DNA from: Spirochaetaceae bacterium
GTDB lineage: Bacteria; Spirochaetota; Spirochaetia; DSM-27196; SLAA01
Direction of reading: 5' to 3'
Assembly (NCBI GenBank): GCA_003556605.1
Contig: PWQX01000041.1
Coordinates: 1 to 36,115, forward strand
DNA length: 36,115 bases
Positions 6,251-36,115 of this stretch are shown piece by piece. The notes beneath the pieces are model-generated. The model saw only the letters and a program-made list of their open reading frames with translations. It was not told the origin of the DNA and did no database searches. Each line of letters opens with the position of its first letter. Position 1 is the first letter of the stretch. Position numbers and translations under genes: made by a program.

Positions 6251-6869
6251 AACGCCGGATGGTCCAGGAGCAGACCGATGTACTTTCGCAGAACCGGCTC
6301 ACCTTCGGGGTTCTCGATCGCCGGGGAGATGTGGTCGCGCAACAAGAGGTGCTCCTCGGGGAACTCCAGTTCATCATCGCCTGCTGTATCGCGGTCCTCA
6401 TCATATTGGTTCACGATCCCGCCGGACGCGCTCGTCTCACCGTCAGCGACGAGTAGGCAAACTGATCTGGGCTCGCCACGCGCGCGGCAGAATGCAGTCG
6501 CCGACCGTCGTCGTCGGCACTGATGCTGGCCACGGCGGATGCTCCCCACGTGGTCCATCGAGCAGACCAAGGCTCCGCACACCATTAGGAGACTTCGGAG
6601 GATGACCGCTTCGCCGTTTCCATGTCGTCGCCATCCATGGCTCCTCACATCGGTTGCCGGTGACTCGGCCGTGCCAGGACGGCATGGACGGGCCGAGAGG
6701 AAGAACCGCGATCTCTTCTCCCCCGGTACTTCTTGTTCCGTTGGGTGATTCGCGCGGCGGACCAAGGGGGCTCAGGTTTGGTCAGCGCGGCTCTGTGTTC
6801 CGTCTTTCCTCCGTTATCCCGCTCTGCTACGGTGTTGGGCGCTTACATCTCGAGATAAATCTTCCACTA
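6120..6869. other. Long gap before the phosphate regulon
   Basis: About 750 bases between the PfkB kinase and the pstS promoter. A minus-strand frame (6765-6217) stays open, but most of its translation is low-quality Arg/Ser/Cys text. Only the last third (DDELEFPEEHLLLRDHISPA and on) looks protein-like, and I do not recognise it. The hydrolase relic lies at the left end. The rest appears to be decayed or non-coding. Confidence 0.35.
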
Positions 6870-6926
6870 TTAACCAAGTTCTAACCGGAGCGTCACGCTG
6901 TTCTAACCTAGACACGGGCATATTAC
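6870..6926 (+). promoter_or_regulatory. Pho-box-like array and -10 of the pst operon
   Basis: TTAACC at 6870-6875, CTAACC at 6881-6886 and CTAACC at 6903-6908 fall on an exact 11-base period (offsets 0, 11, 33). A degenerate unit, GTCACG, lies at 6892-6897, the missing step. PhoB/PhoP-class regulators bind direct repeats spaced 11 bp. A -10-like TATTAC (6921-6926) begins 12 bases after the last unit, so the last repeat takes the place of a -35, as in classical Pho promoters. The binder is presumably the PhoB encoded downstream. Confidence 0.7.
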
Positions 6927-6953
6927 GCCCGAGAAACACGGGCTTTGGGCCCG
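6915..6953 (+). promoter_or_regulatory. Two tandem hairpins with identical arms in the pstS leader
   Basis: CGGGC (6915-6919) pairs with GCCCG (6927-6931), and CGGGC (6939-6943) pairs with GCCCG (6949-6953). The two hairpins repeat with a 24-base period and share arms, so either left arm can pair with either right arm. The first loop contains the -10-like TATTAC. They could act as an operator at the DNA level or set leader RNA structure ahead of the pstS ribosome binding site. Confidence 0.45.
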
Positions 6954-24671: not shown

Positions 24672-27600
24672 ATGTGCTCCCAGCTCCTTGCGCCGCGAGA
24701 TCGCTTTTACTATTATTCGACGGTGGCCACAGACAGGCAAAGCCTCGGCCTGCTGATCGGGCAGGCGTTTCTCGTTGGGCTTGCGTTCGGTTTGCTGTAC
24801 AATGTCGCCTACACGTCACTGGTGTACGAACACGGCTCGGCCGGACTGCGGGTGGTGTATGTACTGGTGGGTGCCGTCGTTCCGATTGTGACGGTCGGCT
24901 TCAATGCGCTTGAAGAACGCCTCTCGTTATCGAGCCTTTCTCTCTTCACCGTCGGGTCCTTCGCGGTTGCAGTTTTCCTGCTGTATTTCCTGACTTTGAC
25001 TTCGAACGCCCCGTGGATCGCGTATATTCTCATGTTGGTCAACACCATGGGGAGCCTGTACTGTATGATGCTGCGCGGCGCTCAAGCTTCGCAGCTGTAC
25101 GATGCGAGGACGCTAAAGCGACGCTACCCCCGCGTTACCGGTGGCGAGATTCTTGCGGTTGTCCTCGCCGGTATCATCGTTGCTCCTCTCGCCGGCGTGC
25201 TCGGTTCGCTGGAGCGGGTGATACCGGTGGCCGGCGCAATCATGCTTGCTGCGCTGTACCTGGTGCATCGTATCGGTACGGACTTTCTCGCGCCGCAGGA
25301 GCTTCCGCACTCGCACGCGGGTCGGGAGCCGGAGTCGGCACACGAGCGGCATGGTTTCGCGGCGCTGCGGGCGATAATCAGCAAGAAATACACGCTGGTT
25401 GTCTTCGGGTATCAATTGGCCTGCTACGCGACTTCGCTTCTGGTTCAGTACCTCGTATACTCCGAGGCGCAGCAGTTCTTCGCTACCCAGGCCGAGTTGA
25501 GCCGGTTTATCGGTCTGGTGAAGTCCGGTACCACCGGGCTGGGCTTTCTGTTCCTCACTTTTGTGGCCGGTCGGCTGCTAGTGAAGTTCGGGATGCCGGT
25601 GGGTCTGGCAGGAAGCCCGGTCGGTGTCGGGCTGTTGCTGTTTGCAGCTGTGATCGCCGGAGTGTTCGACGACGGTACCGGGCGCAGCTTCTTCGTGCTC
25701 ATCGTTGCTTCACAGTTCGTCGATTACATGCTCTATTCGGGGTTCACAAAGACCTCGGTGCAGAGCGCCTTTCAACCATTGCCGGCGCATGAGCGCGAAG
25801 CGGTTCACACCTTCGTGCAGGGCGTCGGAATCCCCCTGAGTTACGGCGTGACGGGGCTGCTGCTGATCGGCTTTGCTCAGATCCCTGGTTTCACTACCGC
25901 CCACGCCGTGTATCTGACACTCGGTGCGGTCGGCGTCTCGGGCTTTCTCGGTGCGCTGCTCTATCGCGGCTACGGAGGCGAGCTGCGCAACTCGCTTACG
26001 CGCCGGCATATCGACGCGGTCGACTTCAGGCTCGAAGATGCATCGACGCTGCAGATTATCGATTCGCTGTTCAGTTCAAACGACCCGCGGCAGATTAGGA
26101 GCGGACTGGAGCTGCTGCAGGAAACCGGGCACCGGAGCTACGCAAATCGGCTCGAGACGCTGATCGACCACCCGAATCCCGAGGTCCGATGCGACGTATA
26201 TCACCGAATCGAGGCGATTGCTCCCGGCTGGGCGACCCCGGCACTCACCCGTGCAATCGCCGCAGAACAGGATGTAGCCGCCCGCGGGAGCGCCATCTGC
26301 GCGCTGTGCGCGGTGCTCGATGAGCCGGCTCCTACGATCAAGCCGTATCTCGAGTCTGATACACCGGCGCTGCGTACTGCGGCCGTCACCGGGCTTTTCC
26401 TGTACGGCGGGATCAACGGCATCCTGCAGGCCGGCGACGTGTTCAACAGGCTGGCTGAATCGGCAGACTCGCGCGAACGCAAGGATGCCGCGGAGATTCT
26501 CGAGCGGGTGGGCATACGCAACTTCTACCATCCGCTGCACGCACTGCTACGGGACTCGGATTTTCAGGTGGTGCGGGCCGCGCTGCGGGCCGCCCGCGCG
26601 GTTGCCCACCCGGCGCTGATTAACGACATCCTGCCGTGGATAGACCCGGTTACCACCCGCGCCGAGGCACTCGGTGCGCTGGCGGCCCAAGGGCCGGCGC
26701 TAACGCCGTTGCTCGAAAGCTGTCTCACCGGAAGCTCCACGCTGCGGCGCGCCTCGATACTGCGCGTGATCCATGCTGCCTCGCGGGTGAATGACGAGAG
26801 CATTGTACGCACCTTCGAAGCGGCGCTGGAGCACCCGGATCCGCAGATCGCCCACGCGAGCTATACGGCGTTGAATCGGCGGGGATACTCAGCCGGCGCC
26901 CGGACGCGGCCGATTGTCGTTCGCAGGCTGTATGTGTATACGCAGATGGCTGCGCGGGCGACCTTGGCGCTTTCGGAGCTAGGCGGAGACCGCCGGCTGC
27001 AGCCGATCATCTCGGCTCTTGAGGATGTTTACAGCCGGCAACTTGAATCGGTCTTTCTGCTCCTGACCTTTGTGCACGACCCGGATGAGATCATGGGTAT
27101 GCGCCACAAAATCGTTGCCGGCGATGCCAAACAGCGCGCGCTCGGTCTCGAACTGCTGGAGGTAGAGCTGTCGGGACAGATCAGGCAACGAGTGCTCGCT
27201 ATAGCTGAATACCCCGATAACCGGAGGCTGGACTCGGCCGGCTACGGTGAGCTGTTCGGGCTGGCTGCGGTCGCACCAAGCGAACGGGTGCGGGAAATAC
27301 TCGAGGATGATGATCGGTGGCCGCCGGAAGCGTGGTTGCGTACTTGCGCCACGCACGCGGCATATACTCTCGGCCTTGGCGCCGAAGCACCGGAGGATAC
27401 CGTGCTTACTATGATAGAGCGGGTAATTACGCTGAAATCAGCGGATATTTTTTCCAGCATCCCGGACGCCATTCTGGCACACATTGCGTCGATTGCCGAG
27501 GATCTGGAAGTCTCGCCCAAACAGACCTTCATCCGCCAGGGTGATCTTGGAACCTGCATGTACATCATCCGAAACGGCCGGGTCGCGATTCACGATGAGC

Positions 27601-27824
27601 AGACCCGTTTCGCGGAGCTGGACTCCGGGAGGGTGGTCGGTGAAATGGCGGTGCTCGACCCTGAGCCCCGTTCGGCGTCGGCTACGGCGCTCGAGAATAC
27701 CTCCCTGCTGAGGATCGACAAGGATGCGTTCGACTCGGTGATGGTTGACCACCCGGATATCGCGCAGGCGGTGATCCAGGTACTCTGCCGTCGCATGCGC
27801 GCTATGATCAAGCAAAGGGAGTGA
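24672..27824 (+). CDS. Nucleotide-transporter-like membrane protein fused to HEAT repeats and a cyclic-nucleotide-binding domain
   Basis: A 1050-residue protein in three parts. Residues 1 to about 440 hold some ten to twelve hydrophobic helices resembling the ATP/ADP translocase-like (NTT/MFS) group, for example LYNVAYTSLVYEHGSAGLRVVYVLVGAVV. Residues about 450-900 are a helical array with HEAT-like spacing (SGLELLQETG, EVRCDVYHRIEAI, AEALGALAAQGPAL, PDPQIAHASYTALNRRG). The last 120 residues are a CRP/PKA-type cyclic-nucleotide-binding fold: FIRQGDLGTCMYIIRNGRV, then VVGEMAVLDPEPRSASA, which keeps the Glu and Arg that hold the cyclic phosphate. NTT-HEAT fusions are known from free-living bacteria. 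The likely model is a cNMP-gated transporter or sensor; the substrate is unknown. The start is not backed by a ribosome binding site. Confidence 0.75.
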   Translation: MCSQLLAPRDRFYYYSTVATDRQSLGLLIGQAFLVGLAFGLLYNVAYTSLVYEHGSAGLRVVYVLVGAVVPIVTVGFNALEERLSLSSLSLFTVGSFAVAVFLLYFLTLTSNAPWIAYILMLVNTMGSLYCMMLRGAQASQLYDARTLKRRYPRVTGGEILAVVLAGIIVAPLAGVLGSLERVIPVAGAIMLAALYLVHRIGTDFLAPQELPHSHAGREPESAHERHGFAALRAIISKKYTLVVFGYQLACYATSLLVQYLVYSEAQQFFATQAELSRFIGLVKSGTTGLGFLFLTFVAGRLLVKFGMPVGLAGSPVGVGLLLFAAVIAGVFDDGTGRSFFVLIVASQFVDYMLYSGFTKTSVQSAFQPLPAHEREAVHTFVQGVGIPLSYGVTGLLLIGFAQIPGFTTAHAVYLTLGAVGVSGFLGALLYRGYGGELRNSLTRRHIDAVDFRLEDASTLQIIDSLFSSNDPRQIRSGLELLQETGHRSYANRLETLIDHPNPEVRCDVYHRIEAIAPGWATPALTRAIAAEQDVAARGSAICALCAVLDEPAPTIKPYLESDTPALRTAAVTGLFLYGGINGILQAGDVFNRLAESADSRERKDAAEILERVGIRNFYHPLHALLRDSDFQVVRAALRAARAVAHPALINDILPWIDPVTTRAEALGALAAQGPALTPLLESCLTGSSTLRRASILRVIHAASRVNDESIVRTFEAALEHPDPQIAHASYTALNRRGYSAGARTRPIVVRRLYVYTQMAARATLALSELGGDRRLQPIISALEDVYSRQLESVFLLLTFVHDPDEIMGMRHKIVAGDAKQRALGLELLEVELSGQIRQRVLAIAEYPDNRRLDSAGYGELFGLAAVAPSERVREILEDDDRWPPEAWLRTCATHAAYTLGLGAEAPEDTVLTMIERVITLKSADIFSSIPDAILAHIASIAEDLEVSPKQTFIRQGDLGTCMYIIRNGRVAIHDEQTRFAELDSGRVVGEMAVLDPEPRSASATALENTSLLRIDKDAFDSVMVDHPDIAQAVIQVLCRRMRAMIKQRE

Positions 27825-28617: not shown

Positions 28618-28758
28618 CGGCGAGAGCTGCAGGCGCGAGCTCACCGAGCACTTGCGAAAGACGCTGCGCAGATGGGTATCGACGGTTCGGGGTGATATGA
28701 ACAGCAGGTCGGCGGCGTGGCGAATCCGCGGCTCGAGCAGACCGAAGGCATCGCGCAA
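28618..28758 (-). pseudogene. LuxR-type helix-turn-helix fragment
   Basis: Minus-strand text ADLLFISPRTVDTHLRSVFR and then KCSVSSRLQLS is the C-terminal LuxR/NarL DNA-binding helix pair, with the family's SxRTVxxHLxxVFRKLxVSSR pattern. The receiver or sensor part is absent, and the upstream edge abuts RND transporter sequence on the other strand near 28740. A rearrangement scar. Confidence 0.6.
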
Positions 28759-30100
28759 ACGTTCGTCATGGGCGGTCGCGATCCGGTGGTGCGAGTCGAT
28801 ATATCGCGTGCTCGGCTAGACGCCTACCGCTTGAGCTTCGCAGAGATCGCCGAAGCGTTGCGTGAGCAAAACATCGATATGAACGCCGGAAAGCTGCTTG
28901 AAGGCGAGCGCGACTACCTCGTGCGGACCAACGGCGCGTTTCGTAGTCTCGACGGGGTTGCAACTGCCGTGGTTTCTGAGCGTGGCGGTCGCGTTGTGCG
29001 CCTGCAGCACCTCGGGCAGGTATCGAGCGGGTACCGGTGCGAGCAAAACCGTGTCTACATAGACGGCGAGCTGCCCGGCGGAGTTCGCCATGCGTTCATC
29101 TCCGATACAACCGAGATTATCCGTAATTCGTTGGCAACGATGTCCGGACAGGCGGCAGCCGGCGCTGTGCTCGCGGTGCTGGTGCTGTTCGTCTTTCTGC
29201 GCAGCGTACGCTCTACGCTGGTGGTTGCGGTCTCAATTCCCGCCTCGGTGCTCATCACGCTTGCGGTTATGTACTTTGCGGGCTTTCCGCTCAACCTCAT
29301 GACGCTCGCCGGACTTGTACTTGCAGTGGGTCTGCTGGTCGACAGCTCGATCGTGATTCTTGAGAGCATCTATCGCCACCGCCAGCGCGGAACCAAACTA
29401 CGAACCGCGGCGTTCATGGGAACCCGCGAAATGGTAGGGGCGATCACCGCGGCAACGCTTACCACGGTCTCTGTGTTTCTACCGCTGGTGATGTTTCGCC
29501 GGCAGCTGGAGCTCGCCGGTGAGCTGTTCGCGAGCCTGGCGTTTACGGTTGTGATCTCCCTGCTTGCTTCGCTTGTGGTAGCGGCATTTCTTGTGCCGGT
29601 ACTTGCCGCGCGCTTCTTCCCGCTTATTAGCACACGACAGCGCCCGCTGCGCAGCCGCCCGGCGCGGCTTAATGCATTGGTTGCGGCCGGCTTCGCGCGC
29701 CTCGAGACCGCCTGCACGCGAAGCCATCGGTGATCATGTCACGCTCGGCGACGAGGTTGCTCTGCGGTTTGAGGGTGATTACGCCGGCTTGAAGCGCTAC
29801 GGGGGCGTATTCGCCGCGGTAGTCGCTGCGGCGGTACTTCTGGTCTTCGGAGTGATGGCGGCGCAGTTCGAGTCGTTCAGCGACCCGTTGATCATCTCTT
29901 TCGCGATTCCATTGACGTTTGTCGACGTGATCGCGGCCCACTATCTGCTTGCAGTTTCGATCAGTCTCTTTAGTGCGCTCGGGTTCGTGATGCTTCTCGG
30001 TATGGCGGTGGATAACGGTATCGGAGCAGCACTGCTCTTAACGCTCTACCTGGTACCGGTACTCTACGCCGCGCTCAACCGCTACACCGAGCGCTGGTGG
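28738..30100 (+). pseudogene. RND-family efflux transporter, truncated and frameshifted
   Basis: Two pieces of an AcrB/MdtB-like pump. The first (to 29733) starts inside the first porter domain (GIAQTFVMGGRDPVVRVDIS). It runs through the helices with GLVLAVGLLVDSSIVILESIYRH, where the proton-relay Asp is kept, and stops after LVPVLAARFFPL. Near 29710-29735 the frame changes, and sequence from the second half resumes (GDHVTLGDEVALRFEGDYAGL, GVMAAQFESFSDPLIISFAIPL). The second porter domain is missing, and part of the last helices is also lost (GMAVDNGI is followed directly by GAALLLTLYLVPVLYAAL). The N-terminal helix and start codon are gone. It cannot make a working trimer. Confidence 0.85.
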
Positions 30101-31975: not shown

Positions 31976-32650
31976 ATGGAAGGGTTCATGAGCACGCTGG
32001 GTGCGTTATTCGTCACCGGGCTGACCGTGGGGGTAGGTCCGTGTATGCTGCACTGCGCTCCGGCGGTCGCATTCTATGTCACCGGTACTGCCGAAGGTTG
32101 GCGAGCCGGCTTCAAAGCGGCTATCAGCTTCGCGCTCGCGCGCCTGGCGGCTCACACGCTGCTCGGCGCGCTCGCCGGGGGAATCGGCATGCAACTGGTA
32201 AACCGCATAGCGGAGGAAGCCCTTGCCGTCTGGGCACAACTCGGCGCTGCGGCTTTTATTCTCCTTCTGGGAGCGCTGATCGTGATGGGCCGCAAGAGCG
32301 GGATCCGCGTGTGCCGCTACTTGAGTCGTCACACTCTGGAGCAAAGCACCATTTCGATGGCACTGCTTGGTTTTCTCATCGGCATCGTTCCCTACTGTGC
32401 CCCGTTCCTGGGCGTCCTGACCTATATCGCCTTTGCCTTGGGGGATGTCGGCCTCGGAGCACTGTGCGGACTTGCCTTCGGGCTCGGCGCCGCGCTGATA
32501 ACCCCTTTGCTGATCGTTGGGCCGGCGGCCGGCTTGCTTGCAAAGGTGTTGAAGACTCCGATACTTCTAGGAGTTCTCAGACGCGCTTCCGGGTTCTTTC
32601 TCCTGCTTTTCGGCTTCACCCTTGCTTCGGCGGTTGTGGGAAGACTGTGA
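31976..32650 (+). CDS. CcdA/DsbD-like transmembrane protein (UreH/SafE superfamily)
   Basis: A 224-residue inner-membrane protein with about six helices in two similar halves. Each half begins with a Cys-Ala-Pro motif: GPCMLHCAPAVAFY (C23, C27) and VPYCAPFLGVLTY (C141). Paired helix-embedded cysteines followed by Pro are how CcdA and DsbD pass electrons from cytoplasmic thioredoxin to the outside. ATG 31976 follows GGAGAGAGGGGG. It heads an apparent operon with two radical SAM genes. A role in delivering reducing equivalents or thiols to them is inferred. Alternative: a sulfite or metal exporter of the same superfamily. Confidence 0.75.
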   Translation: MEGFMSTLGALFVTGLTVGVGPCMLHCAPAVAFYVTGTAEGWRAGFKAAISFALARLAAHTLLGALAGGIGMQLVNRIAEEALAVWAQLGAAAFILLLGALIVMGRKSGIRVCRYLSRHTLEQSTISMALLGFLIGIVPYCAPFLGVLTYIAFALGDVGLGALCGLAFGLGAALITPLLIVGPAAGLLAKVLKTPILLGVLRRASGFFLLLFGFTLASAVVGRL

Positions 32651-32786
32651 ACTGCCTGCCTGCCTGCCGCATTCGGTATAGTTCGGAGACGTGCTGATTT
32701 TTTCCCTGGCAGGGCAGCGTATTGGGCGGTAAAATAGAGGGGAGCAATGGCGAGCGAATTCGTTGAGCGGGATTGCGAGGGCGATC

Positions 32787-33917
32787 GTGAGGGGAAATCC
32801 GCTGCGGAGGCTGGTCGAGCTACTGGTCCTGGTATCCTTTATCATTGTCGGGGCGGTGGTGGTCCTGCTAGGTATGCCTTCTTCCGAAACTGCTGACGGC
32901 GAGCTCAAACTGACGCCGGCACGGTTTTGGAGGGAGTTGGCGGGGAACGCCGTCCAGTGTGAGTTGTGCTTTCGCAACTGCACCATCCCTGAAGGGCAGC
33001 GGGGTTACTGCCGAGTTCGAGAAAACAGGGGCGGGAAGCTCTACACCCTGGTATATGGAAGGGCGGCGGGGTTTGACCTGGCCACCATCGAAAAGGAGCC
33101 CATGTATCATGTTCTTCCGGGGCACCAGAATCTGGGAGTGTTCACCGCCGGCTGCAATTTCAGGTGCAGTTTCTGCCATAATTGGCATGTTGCTACCAAG
33201 AGCCCTGAGGAGGTGAGGTCTCTGACGCTGCCGCCCGAAGAGCTTGTCGGTATGGCTTTAGATAAGGGCTGCCGATCAATATCGTTCACGATAAACGAAC
33301 CCACTGTATTCTATGAGTACATGTACGACACAGCCGCGATTGCGCGGGAGAAGGGGCTGATTACCCTCTTTCACACCAACGGCGCAATAAACCGCGAACC
33401 TCTAAGAGAGCTTCTCCGGCACATGGATGCGGTTTGTGTGGACCTCAAAGGGTTTACGGGCCAGTTTTTCCGCAAGACCTCCTTTTCGCAGCTCGAGCCT
33501 GTGCTCGAGACCCTGAAGACCGTCAAAGAGTCGGGGGTGTGGTTTGAAATCGTGAATCTCGTGATTCCTACCCTGAATGACGACCCCACGCAAACACGCG
33601 AGATGTGCCGGTGGATCAAGGAGAATCTCGGAGAGCACGTGCCGGTGCACTTCAACCGTTTCTTCCCCGCCTACAGGTTGACGAGAGTTCCTCCCACGCC
33701 GATTGAAACCTTGGAAAGGGCGCGGCAGATCGCTATTGAGGAGGGCTTGCGTTACGTTACGATCGGCAACGTGCCCGGGCATGAGTTCAACAGTACCTAC
33801 TGCCCGGAGTGCAACAATACACTCGTCAAGCGGGTTCATTTCTCGGTGTTGGAGAATAATATCGAGGGCGGCACCTGCCGCTACTGCGGCCACCGGATAC
33901 CGGGGGTGTGGAACTGA
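32787..33917 (+). CDS. Membrane-anchored radical SAM protein, AmmeMemoRadiSam (AmrS) type, copy 1
   Basis: The start is set at GTG 32787 (MRGNPLRRLVELL), which has GAGGG at 32777-32781; a TTG at 32763 is in frame, and ATG 32747, with a good site, is out of frame. The 376 residues have one N-terminal helix (about 10-30). A four-Cys cap follows (C58, C61, C65, C75 in QCELCFRNC and GYCRVRENR), then the SAM cluster motif CNFRCSFC (C123, C127, C130). ITFTINEPT-like text (SFTINEPTVFYEY), VNLVIPTLNDD and HFNRFFPAY mark the AmrS family, and a C-terminal zinc ribbon (YCPEC, CRYCG) ends it. Positive charges before the helix predict N-in, putting the enzyme outside the cytoplasm. Substrate unknown. Confidence 0.88.
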   Translation: MRGNPLRRLVELLVLVSFIIVGAVVVLLGMPSSETADGELKLTPARFWRELAGNAVQCELCFRNCTIPEGQRGYCRVRENRGGKLYTLVYGRAAGFDLATIEKEPMYHVLPGHQNLGVFTAGCNFRCSFCHNWHVATKSPEEVRSLTLPPEELVGMALDKGCRSISFTINEPTVFYEYMYDTAAIAREKGLITLFHTNGAINREPLRELLRHMDAVCVDLKGFTGQFFRKTSFSQLEPVLETLKTVKESGVWFEIVNLVIPTLNDDPTQTREMCRWIKENLGEHVPVHFNRFFPAYRLTRVPPTPIETLERARQIAIEEGLRYVTIGNVPGHEFNSTYCPECNNTLVKRVHFSVLENNIEGGTCRYCGHRIPGVWN

Positions 33918-33954
33918 CACGGGCCGTCTTCGGGGCCTGATTTGGGAGGCTGAG

Positions 33955-35085
33955 ATGAAAAAGCTCTCTTTTCACCGCTTGCTCGAGGTAGCCCTGCTGA
34001 TGGCGTTCGTGGGGTTCGGAGCGATGATCGTACGGCAGGGCTTTCCGGCTCCCCGTCCCGAGCTCAATGAGGAGCTTACCGAAGCGAAATACTGGCTGAG
34101 CCTCGAGGGGAACGCGGTCCAATGCCGGCTCTGTTTCCGCAGTTGCACCATCGCGGAGGGCGCGAGAGGTTACTGCGAAGTAAGGGAGAACAGAGGCGGA
34201 ACTCTGTATACGCTTGTCTACGGCAAACCCTGCGCCCTCACCCCTGGCAGTCCCATGGAGAAGCTGCCGCTTTACCACGTGAAACCCGGCAGTCTCAGAT
34301 TCAATGTTGCTACCGCCGGATGTAACTTCAAGTGCAGCTTTTGTCACAACTGGCACATCGCCGTTCGTCCGCCTGAGGAGGTCACGTATCAACGGCTTTC
34401 CCCGGAGGAAGTGGCGGCGAAGGCGGCTGAACATGGCCTGGAGTTCATTGCCTTTACCTACAATGAACCAACGGTATTCTACGAATATATGTACGATATT
34501 TCGGTGGCTGCCAAGCAAAGGGGCATACGGACGCTCCTCAACACAAACGGGGCGATAAAGCCCGAGCCTCTGCGTGCGCTCCTTGAATACATAGACGCGG
34601 TGAACGTTGACCTGAAGGCTTTCACCGCGGAGTTCTACGATATAACCTCTCTCGCCGAGCTCCAGCCGGTGCTCGATACCCTGCAGCTGTTGGCCGAGGA
34701 AGAGGTGTGGTTTGAAATCGTGAACCTGGTGATCCCCACCTTGAACGATGACACCGAAATTATACGCCAGATGTGTCGCTGGATACGGGAGGAGCTCGGC
34801 GACGAGGTTCCTGTGCATTTCAACCGTTTCTTTCCCGCTTATAAGCTGACCAGGGTCCCTCCAACCCCTGTTGAGACGCTGGAGGACGCAAGGAGGATAG
34901 CGCTGGAGGAGGGGCTGAAGTACGTCTATATCGGCAACGTTCCCGGCCACCCGGCAAACAACACCTACTGTCCCGGCTGCAATGAAAAGGTGGTCGGCAG
35001 AACCGGGTTTGCCGTGACGGAGCTCAATGTGGAAGAGGCGAAATGCAGGTTCTGCGGCCGCCATCTTCCGGGAGTTTGGAACTAA
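33955..35085 (+). CDS. Membrane-anchored radical SAM protein, AmmeMemoRadiSam (AmrS) type, copy 2
   Basis: ATG 33955 follows GGGAGG (33944-33949), 37 bases after copy 1. The 376 residues are colinear with copy 1: N-terminal helix (about 9-26, LLEVALLMAFVGFGAMIV), four-Cys cap (C57, C60, C64, C74), SAM cluster C123, C127, C130 (CNFKCSFC), AFTYNEPTVFYEY, VNLVIPTLNDD, HFNRFFPAYKLTRVPPTP, and the terminal ribbon C339, C342, C364, C367. Both copies keep every cysteine, so neither is decaying. No AMMECR1 or Memo gene, the usual partners, is in the window. The stop (35083-35085) overlaps the convergent gene's stop by two bases. The copies may act as a pair on different substrates or as a heterodimer (inference). 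Confidence 0.9.
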   Translation: MKKLSFHRLLEVALLMAFVGFGAMIVRQGFPAPRPELNEELTEAKYWLSLEGNAVQCRLCFRSCTIAEGARGYCEVRENRGGTLYTLVYGKPCALTPGSPMEKLPLYHVKPGSLRFNVATAGCNFKCSFCHNWHIAVRPPEEVTYQRLSPEEVAAKAAEHGLEFIAFTYNEPTVFYEYMYDISVAAKQRGIRTLLNTNGAIKPEPLRALLEYIDAVNVDLKAFTAEFYDITSLAELQPVLDTLQLLAEEEVWFEIVNLVIPTLNDDTEIIRQMCRWIREELGDEVPVHFNRFFPAYKLTRVPPTPVETLEDARRIALEEGLKYVYIGNVPGHPANNTYCPGCNEKVVGRTGFAVTELNVEEAKCRFCGRHLPGVWN

Positions 35086-36115
35086 AGCTTCGCGCCGATG
35101 AAAAGGGCGGCGCATGCGGCCAGGCTGAGGGCCGCTATCACGACAGTGGTACTGACGATGCCGAGAACCGGAATGAGGAGGATCGAAGCGAGGAACGCCC
35201 CCAGCACCGAGCCCCACAGGTCGGCTGCATACAGTAAGCCGACCGCAGGCGCAACACTCACGGTTCTTTGCAGGTAGACCTTGCAGGCGAGGGGGAATTG
35301 TAAACCGATAAGAAAGCCGCCGGTGAGATTGAGAAGCGAAAACGGGAGCTCTCCGGGGATCCCGTAATGCCCGCTCAGCGCCTGCGCGAGCCACGGCAGC
35401 GAGCACGCATAGAGGGCGAGTACCAAGACTATCCGCGCGAGAAGGGCAACCTCGCCGGTGAGCCTGTTCATTATCCGGTTCATCACCCATCCACCGAGCC
35501 CCAACCCGAGCATGAACGCGGCGGTAAGAACGCCGATTTTCTGGTACAGATGCCCATAGGACAGCTGAAAGAGGAAGAGGAGCACGATCGTGAAGGTCAT
35601 TCCGGCGAAACCGCTTGTGAACAGCGCAAGGACAACGGGGTACCGGGTCGATCTTCTTCTGCGCAGGCTCTCCACAACCGGCACGAGGAAAAGGGGCACA
35701 ACAGCGAGAACCCGCCAAAGCCTCGCCCCACGGGCGAGGTCAAAAGCAGCCCTGAGGCGGGGGTGGAACATCGCGTTCCACAGCGCGAGGCTGTGAAAGG
35801 TGGCGATTGGCCTTCTGTCATGGTTAATCTCGCCGCTCTCATCAAGATATGCGGCAAGCCGGCTGACCCGCTCGGGGCGAAGCTTGTGCTCTATGTAATG
35901 AGAAGTGAAAAGCCTGGTTTCGAGTTTCCTTTCCGCAAGGCGGTCGCTTATCTCTGCGGCGTCAACAGCGGGCAGGAGAGGATCATCGGAAGCGAGGAGA
36001 ATCGTGAAGTCATTGGGGATCACGGAGACCGCCGGGAAGACTTCTTTCAGCGTCGTGTGGATGCTGCGGTTCAGCCGTATCATCTCCGAGCCCATATACG
36101 CTTCCGAGGAGGGAA
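35082..36115 (-). CDS. Membrane-fused spermidine-synthase-like protein (partial, runs off window)
   Basis: The minus-strand frame is open to the window edge, and the upstream codons read PSSEAY before MGSEMIRLNRS, so the gene begins outside. At least 344 residues are visible. The first 100 or so are the end of an aminopropyltransferase-type Rossmann domain: RLNRSIHTTLKEVFP, VIPNDFTILLASDDPL. Then HDRRPIATFHSLALWNAMF leads to about seven membrane helices (LGLGLGGWVMNRIM, LTGGFLIGLQFPLA, LYAADLWGSVLGAFLA). Proteins joining spermidine-synthase and membrane domains are widespread; true polyamine activity is often unproven. It is tail-to-tail with the radical SAM pair with overlapping stops and no terminator. 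Confidence 0.8.
   Translation of the reverse strand, partial: PSSEAYMGSEMIRLNRSIHTTLKEVFPAVSVIPNDFTILLASDDPLLPAVDAAEISDRLAERKLETRLFTSHYIEHKLRPERVSRLAAYLDESGEINHDRRPIATFHSLALWNAMFHPRLRAAFDLARGARLWRVLAVVPLFLVPVVESLRRRRSTRYPVVLALFTSGFAGMTFTIVLLFLFQLSYGHLYQKIGVLTAAFMLGLGLGGWVMNRIMNRLTGEVALLARIVLVLALYACSLPWLAQALSGHYGIPGELPFSLLNLTGGFLIGLQFPLACKVYLQRTVSVAPAVGLLYAADLWGSVLGAFLASILLIPVLGIVSTTVVIAALSLAACAALFIGAKL

Follow-up and report, generated by a model that had tools for sequence, protein, structure and literature searches.

Putatively exported AmrS-type radical SAM enzymes and a conserved MFS/spermidine-synthase-like partner: a possible extracytoplasmic variant of AmmeMemoRadiSam

Radical SAM enzymes form one of the largest enzyme superfamilies and are understood to be cytoplasmic, as that is where both SAM and low-potential electrons are made. 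To our knowledge, the occurrence of SAM outside of the bacterial cytoplasm is not established, nor do we know of a function for the AmmeMemoRadiSam system, of which two members, Memo and AMMECR1, have human relatives. The locus considered here lies at one end of a 36,115-nucleotide contig from a Spirochaetaceae MAG (the window, i.e., the whole stretch of DNA that was analysed), and encodes two AmrS-type radical SAM proteins, each starting with a membrane helix. On which side of the membrane might such enzymes act, and which of the neighbouring genes are their partners? Four genes are of relevance:

31976..32650, + strand: CcdA/DsbD_2-type membrane electron carrier, 224 aa (PF13386, DsbD_2, 56.7 bits; cut-off 24.9)
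32763..33917, + strand: RS1, membrane-anchored AmrS-type radical SAM enzyme (TIGR04337, 361 bits; N-terminal anchor MRGNPLRRLVELLVLVSFIIVG)
33955..35085, + strand: RS2, second membrane-anchored AmrS, of another sub-clade (TIGR04337, 355 bits)
35082..36113, - strand: MFS/SpdS-like partner, C-terminal 343 aa, i.e., the last part of the SpdS-like domain and the second half of the membrane region (N-terminal part on contig C120)

The CcdA-like protein possesses Cys motifs in both of its halves (GPCMLHCAP and VPYCAPF), that is, the paired cysteines as well as the PF13386 match, and is the sole such match in this 3.88 Mb genome. RS1 and RS2, separated by 37 bp and with one N-terminal helix each, both exceed the curated TIGR04337 (AmmeMemoSam_rS) cut-off of 220 bits. 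For RS1, a GTG start at 32787 is more likely than the TTG at 32763, based on a GAGGG upstream, as read by eye. Across an alignment of 46 AmrS rows, the cap cysteines (C57, C60, C64, and C74) are invariant, as are those of the CX3CX2C cluster (C123, C127, and C130; 46 of 46), with the C-terminal CxxC pair invariant or nearly so. The AlphaFold model of RS2 (pLDDT 94) consists of a helix (residues 6-28), a floppy linker, and then a body with pLDDT of approximately 97. Its best Foldseek matches are to pyruvate formate-lyase (PFL) activating enzyme (3cb8/8fo0/3c8f) which, in contrast, is cytoplasmic and is without cap, C-terminal Cys pairs, or anchor.

An initial annotation, made from the sequence alone, had described a two-half Cys-bearing membrane protein followed by two colinear AmrS proteins with helix, four-Cys cap, CX3CX2C, and CxxC, and both descriptions are upheld by these profile matches and aligned motifs. 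The convergent, membrane-fused spermidine-synthase-like gene that it also described is real, but is interrupted at the contig end, with the missing portion supplied by C120. Bases 1-284 of the latter overlap window positions 35832-36115 (280 of 284 identical, with four mismatches), and joining the two yields an intact partner open reading frame of about 750 aa. Such an overlap suggests that strain variation broke the assembly within the partner gene. Since this MAG carries 4.4% contamination, these and other contig-to-contig links are likely rather than certain.

Which of these genes belong together? Among 80 loci collected by similarity to RS2 alone, several of them cut by contig ends, the MFS/SpdS-like gene is found beside AmrS in 56, spanning approximately 15 named phyla, with most of this evidence coming from MAGs and a few sediment projects being over-represented. 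Other neighbours within the 80 are Memo (18), AMMECR1 (15), NapH-like Fe-S membrane proteins (14), DUF362 (11), and CcdA (8), while 50 loci have one AmrS gene, 21 have two, and 6 have three. In a reverse search, with the partner as query against 198 genomes of the same phylum, the partner was present in 23 genomes, and AmrS directly adjoins it in 18 of 23 loci, all outside of C120 and the window contig (C51). At one further locus, in the single-contig genome G013, it is a signal-anchored PflA-like radical SAM gene, along with a CcdA gene, that lies beside the partner; in the remaining four no radical SAM gene was in view. The conserved unit, that is, is AmrS plus the MFS/SpdS-like gene. The initial annotation had sought it instead in CcdA plus two radical SAM enzymes, and the conserved member turns out to be what it had called spermidine-synthase-like. 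Its broader idea of a membrane-associated radical SAM system, to be judged by neighbourhood conservation, nevertheless holds. CcdA as a core component is rejected given its presence in so few loci. As for CcdA providing the system with its own thiol supply, a link is plausible, considering those eight loci and the gene being the only genomic copy here, but it is not a core one.

MFS/SpdS-like genes with no radical SAM gene in view occur at L145, L146, and L147, some of them next to DNA polymerase III alpha-like pieces. These may belong to a related family that serves some other role, or instead their radical SAM partners may be found elsewhere.

What sort of protein is the partner? When aligned, 55 full-length sequences display seven hydrophobic segments, then a domain of roughly 300 residues, and then seven more segments. 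Lysines plus arginines average 2.5-3.6 per loop predicted to be inside (1.1 in the short C-terminus) versus approximately 1 or less per loop predicted to be outside. The same arrangement of seven transmembrane helices, domain, and seven transmembrane helices is seen when the L039 homologue is modelled with AlphaFold (pLDDT 92.9, pTM 0.92), and TM1-6 repeat TM9-14 (hhalign E 2e-16). The top Foldseek rows were all spermidine synthases (SpdS fold, Z 30.1 to 1uir, 26% identity), with the MFS match emerging upon a second look (SV2A, Z 29.4, 354 residues). From the 14 helices, their repeat, and the two folds, the partner therefore would appear to be an MFS protein whose two extra central helices present an SpdS-like domain outside. 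The L039 and L118 partners exceed the cut-off of NF037959 which, together with PRK03612, is an annotation family of fused MFS/spermidine synthases; within open-licence papers we found no link of either family to radical SAM enzymes.

With true spermidine synthases the partner shares the fold and the ribose/adenine-binding acids (E332 and D361, each retained in 51 of 55 sequences), and differs in its 14-helix host protein and in what has been lost. The Asp of GGGDG, which by alignment to 1inl binds the decarboxylated-SAM amine, is gone from all 55, the three with Glu at this GGG(D/E)G position (L109, L110, and L117) all having degenerate glycine motifs. Of the catalytic Asp pair (DSTDP), the first is present in 12 of 55 and the second in 27 of 55, with the window protein reading NLPPPST. 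Just after this old catalytic site comes N389 R390 xx T393, a new motif that is almost invariant. The partner as a maker of spermidine is rejected due to these losses of dcSAM-binding and catalytic residues.

On which side of the membrane AmrS resides can be approached through its N-termini. We classed 142 AmrS rows, which are related rather than independent, by the stretch preceding the cap cysteines. Those with the partner within 6 kb number 96, of which 67 are Tat-like, 24 are Sec-like, anchor, or KR/RK, and 5 fall below the hydropathy cut-off. By eye, these five carry RRxF/FL-type signals, giving export-type N-termini in 96 of 96 (91 by script plus 5 by eye), and about three quarters of partner-adjacent AmrS bear Tat, i.e., RRx-hydrophobic, signals. 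The roughly 19 signal-less rows, from a list read by eye and most with only 1.5 kb of flank, are never with the partner. The window copies are less distinct: RS1 has just a weak Tat motif, LRRLVEL, and RS2 has none, with three K/R preceding the helix in each. Of 31 non-Tat anchors, 20 carry the higher net charge ahead of the helix, a modest bias. The genome encodes TatC. Adjacent Memo-AMMECR1 fusions possess Sec or lipobox N-termini and, in two Atribacterota-type MAGs (L046 7160-9112 and L051 2766-4724), one protein of 650 aa joins a signal peptide and Memo to AmrS. Export of AmrS, as predicted from such signals, is well supported, and the AmrS domains of the window's own copies presumably face outward as well. 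That AmrS catalytic and SpdS-like domains both lie outside, the latter based on charge bias and the AlphaFold model, is well supported but not proven. This outer-face placement by signals and topology is the main point absent from the initial annotation.

In a quick tree, exported AmrS are nearly one group, with SH-aLRT 98 for the branch holding all of them. The export label changes 3 times versus 19 in shuffles, or 2 following a correction at L015, with a reversal inside the exported group being of the Seramator type, where signal-less Memo and AMMECR1 are adjacent. Tree and adjacency are not independent, and an independent-pairs test of export versus partner had too few pairs. RS1 groups with L039_7/L040_6 (96) and RS2 with L038_2/L039_5/L040_4. 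As these separate sub-clades recur together around one partner gene in Thermoflexales (L039 and L040), RS1 and RS2 are therefore seen as old paralogues, probably with different targets, which fits the earlier suggestion that the two copies are specialised. The AmrS of G049, of the same class, groups with those of Spirochaetales L050 and L052 (support 100), in line with a probable spirochaete origin for the genome studied here.

What of the rest of this genome? Memo and AMMECR1 are absent from both the window contig and C120, and C120 extends 8.4 kb beyond, which argues against their lying just past the contig end. Both nevertheless are encoded elsewhere, on contig C202, without signal peptides and thus apparently as a cytoplasmic set, so that the two are present in the same genome and not in the same neighbourhood. 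The absence of AMMECR1 and Memo as initially claimed therefore stands for the locus but not for the genome, and not for the many relatives in which exported Memo-AMMECR1 is found in the operon. Two more AmrS genes exist, one Tat-type (C110) and one signal-less (C104). On C110 (L118 1-4719), a radical SAM gene of the PflA-like kind is followed by the AmrS with its Tat signal and by a complete MFS/SpdS-like gene of 819 aa, making this the genome's second locus of the AmrS plus MFS/SpdS-like type. The C104 AmrS together with the C202 Memo and AMMECR1 may form an ordinary cytoplasmic set, with the three exported AmrS copies then working without exported Memo or AMMECR1. Elsewhere, eight regions (L167, L169, L172-L174, L176, L178, and L180) combine lipoprotein or Sec-type Memo-AMMECR1, Tat-like AmrS, and the MFS-SpdS protein, arranged as operons or clusters.

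We thus view these loci, with a probability of roughly 0.6, as an extracytoplasmic variant of AmmeMemoRadiSam in which the partner handles SAM on the outer face. Shared with AmmeMemoRadiSam AmrS are the above-cut-off profile match, the cap cysteines, CX3CX2C, and C-terminal CxxC, plus, in many relatives, an operon with Memo and AMMECR1. Different are the export signal or anchor, the two to three tandem paralogues, the MFS/SpdS-like partner, and Memo and AMMECR1 being exported or missing from the locus. Exported AmrS would employ its [4Fe-4S] cluster and SAM to generate a 5'-deoxyadenosyl radical, and this would abstract a hydrogen from an envelope protein or lipid, much as PFL-activase does inside of the cell. 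The partner may carry SAM in, or clear 5'-deoxyadenosine, across the membrane, and/or may perform a methyltransferase-like step with SAM. Electrons might cross via CcdA here or via NapH/NosR-like ferredoxin proteins elsewhere, candidate routes thus including CcdA, NapH/NapG-like proteins, and FMN_bind/Fer4_5 (as in L050), while in many relatives an exported Memo-AMMECR1 fusion would complete the set. SAM supply, chemistry, substrate, and electron route are all, that is, matters which we infer.

Several other readings need to be weighed against this one. In one of them, the partner serves as an extracytoplasmic methyltransferase acting on the envelope target of AmrS, with SAM reaching the periplasm by other means. 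The model would be fungal NHMT (AN4663), an ER-resident enzyme with seven transmembrane helices and an SpdS-like domain that methylates secreted proteins, including LPMOs, and for which ER SAM supply may be limiting (PMC10349129). The likeness is one of architecture and residues, i.e., seven helices followed by an SpdS-like domain, the acid lost from GxG(D/E)G, and the ribose Glu kept (PMC10349129), so that a protein of this type with this same loss can methylate secreted proteins; the N389 R390 xx T393 motif also suggests a real active site. Unlike NHMT, however, the partner has a second, C-terminal membrane half that completes an MFS fold, exceeding what an anchor needs, and it pairs with radical SAM enzymes, indeed with two different exported families of them, the second being the PflA-like one of G013, which favours a general SAM-handling role over service to one AmrS reaction. 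We consider methyltransferase activity alone to be possible though on the unlikely side. Unlikely, too, is that AmrS is loaded and active inside and then exported folded for a structural, metal, or electron-transfer role, with no radical chemistry outside. Tat does export folded Fe-S proteins, and the cluster accordingly could be made inside, but the radical SAM cluster and PFL-activase-like core residues are all retained, and a SAM-type domain sits on the same side as AmrS.

Quite unlikely is that both the AmrS and SpdS-like domains are cytoplasmic, with the N-terminal helix a plain anchor and the whole a membrane-tethered but otherwise ordinary intracellular system. The window copies having no clear Tat motif is consistent with this, as is SAM and low-potential electrons being known from the cell interior. 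Against it are the RRx-hydrophobic signals of most partner-adjacent AmrS, the lipobox and Sec signals of Memo-AMMECR1 partners, and the positive-inside bias which, with seven preceding helices, places the SpdS-like domain outside. The model offered by the initial annotation, a CcdA-centred redox system with AmrS copies as thiol clients, gains from the genome's only CcdA lying directly upstream of RS1 and from CcdA recurring both among the 80 loci and in L175. Most loci do without CcdA, however, some having NapH-like, NapGH-like, or FMN_bind/Fer4_5 proteins instead, and we view this model as very unlikely.

If the extracytoplasmic reading is true, then a widespread, conserved exported branch with its own membrane partner for handling SAM would break the cytoplasm-only rule for radical SAM enzymes and would imply that bacteria have some way of moving SAM through the membrane. 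This branch would also provide a concrete handle on AmmeMemoRadiSam, via the location of AmrS, the movement of SAM by the partner, and the envelope molecule that is changed. Within the open-licence PMC literature, we found no paper with the phrase 'periplasmic radical SAM' and none on exported radical SAM enzymes, and AmmeMemoRadiSam receives a single mention in each of five papers. More generally, and tentatively, bacteria and some archaea may possess extracytoplasmic SAM radical chemistry, comprising Tat- or Sec-exported AmrS, a PflA-like family, and Memo-AMMECR1, a dedicated MFS transporter that supplies SAM and bears a SAM-binding domain on its outer side, trans-membrane electrons (CcdA, NapGH, or NosR-like) and, in places, an anchored Fe-S assembly protein.

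A number of minor observations may be added. Proteins of the PflA-like family are about 340-375 aa long, start with signals of the Tat (SRRxFL), lipoprotein-like, or anchor type, and adjoin exported AmrS and/or the MFS/SpdS gene (members: L127 7281-8408, L081 5631-6698, L128 1493-2554, L063 2191-3210, and L175 8306-9424). Two Spirochaetales loci (L050 10339-14455 and L052 7624-11574) encode a nitroreductase with a signal peptide, a membrane protein combining FMN_bind and Fer4_5, a CcdA-like protein, and a FeS_assembly_P (DUF59) protein anchored at its N-terminus, the last of which looks like an Fe-S assembly factor located outside of the cytoplasm. By eye, no small precursor peptide recurs between genes. 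At L042, the two AmrS genes flank a gene (6560-6952) for a protein of 130 aa that has a membrane helix as well as CxxCxGxG repeats of the DnaJ type. Elsewhere in the window, an RND (AcrB-type) transporter is present at 28717-30040 as two out-of-frame pieces, the second of which continues into a GNAT acetyltransferase open reading frame, suggestive of an efflux gene that has decayed or been misassembled. The window further encodes, at 24672-27824, a protein of 1050 aa that begins with a transporter-like membrane part, contains HEAT repeats, and ends in a cyclic-nucleotide-binding domain.
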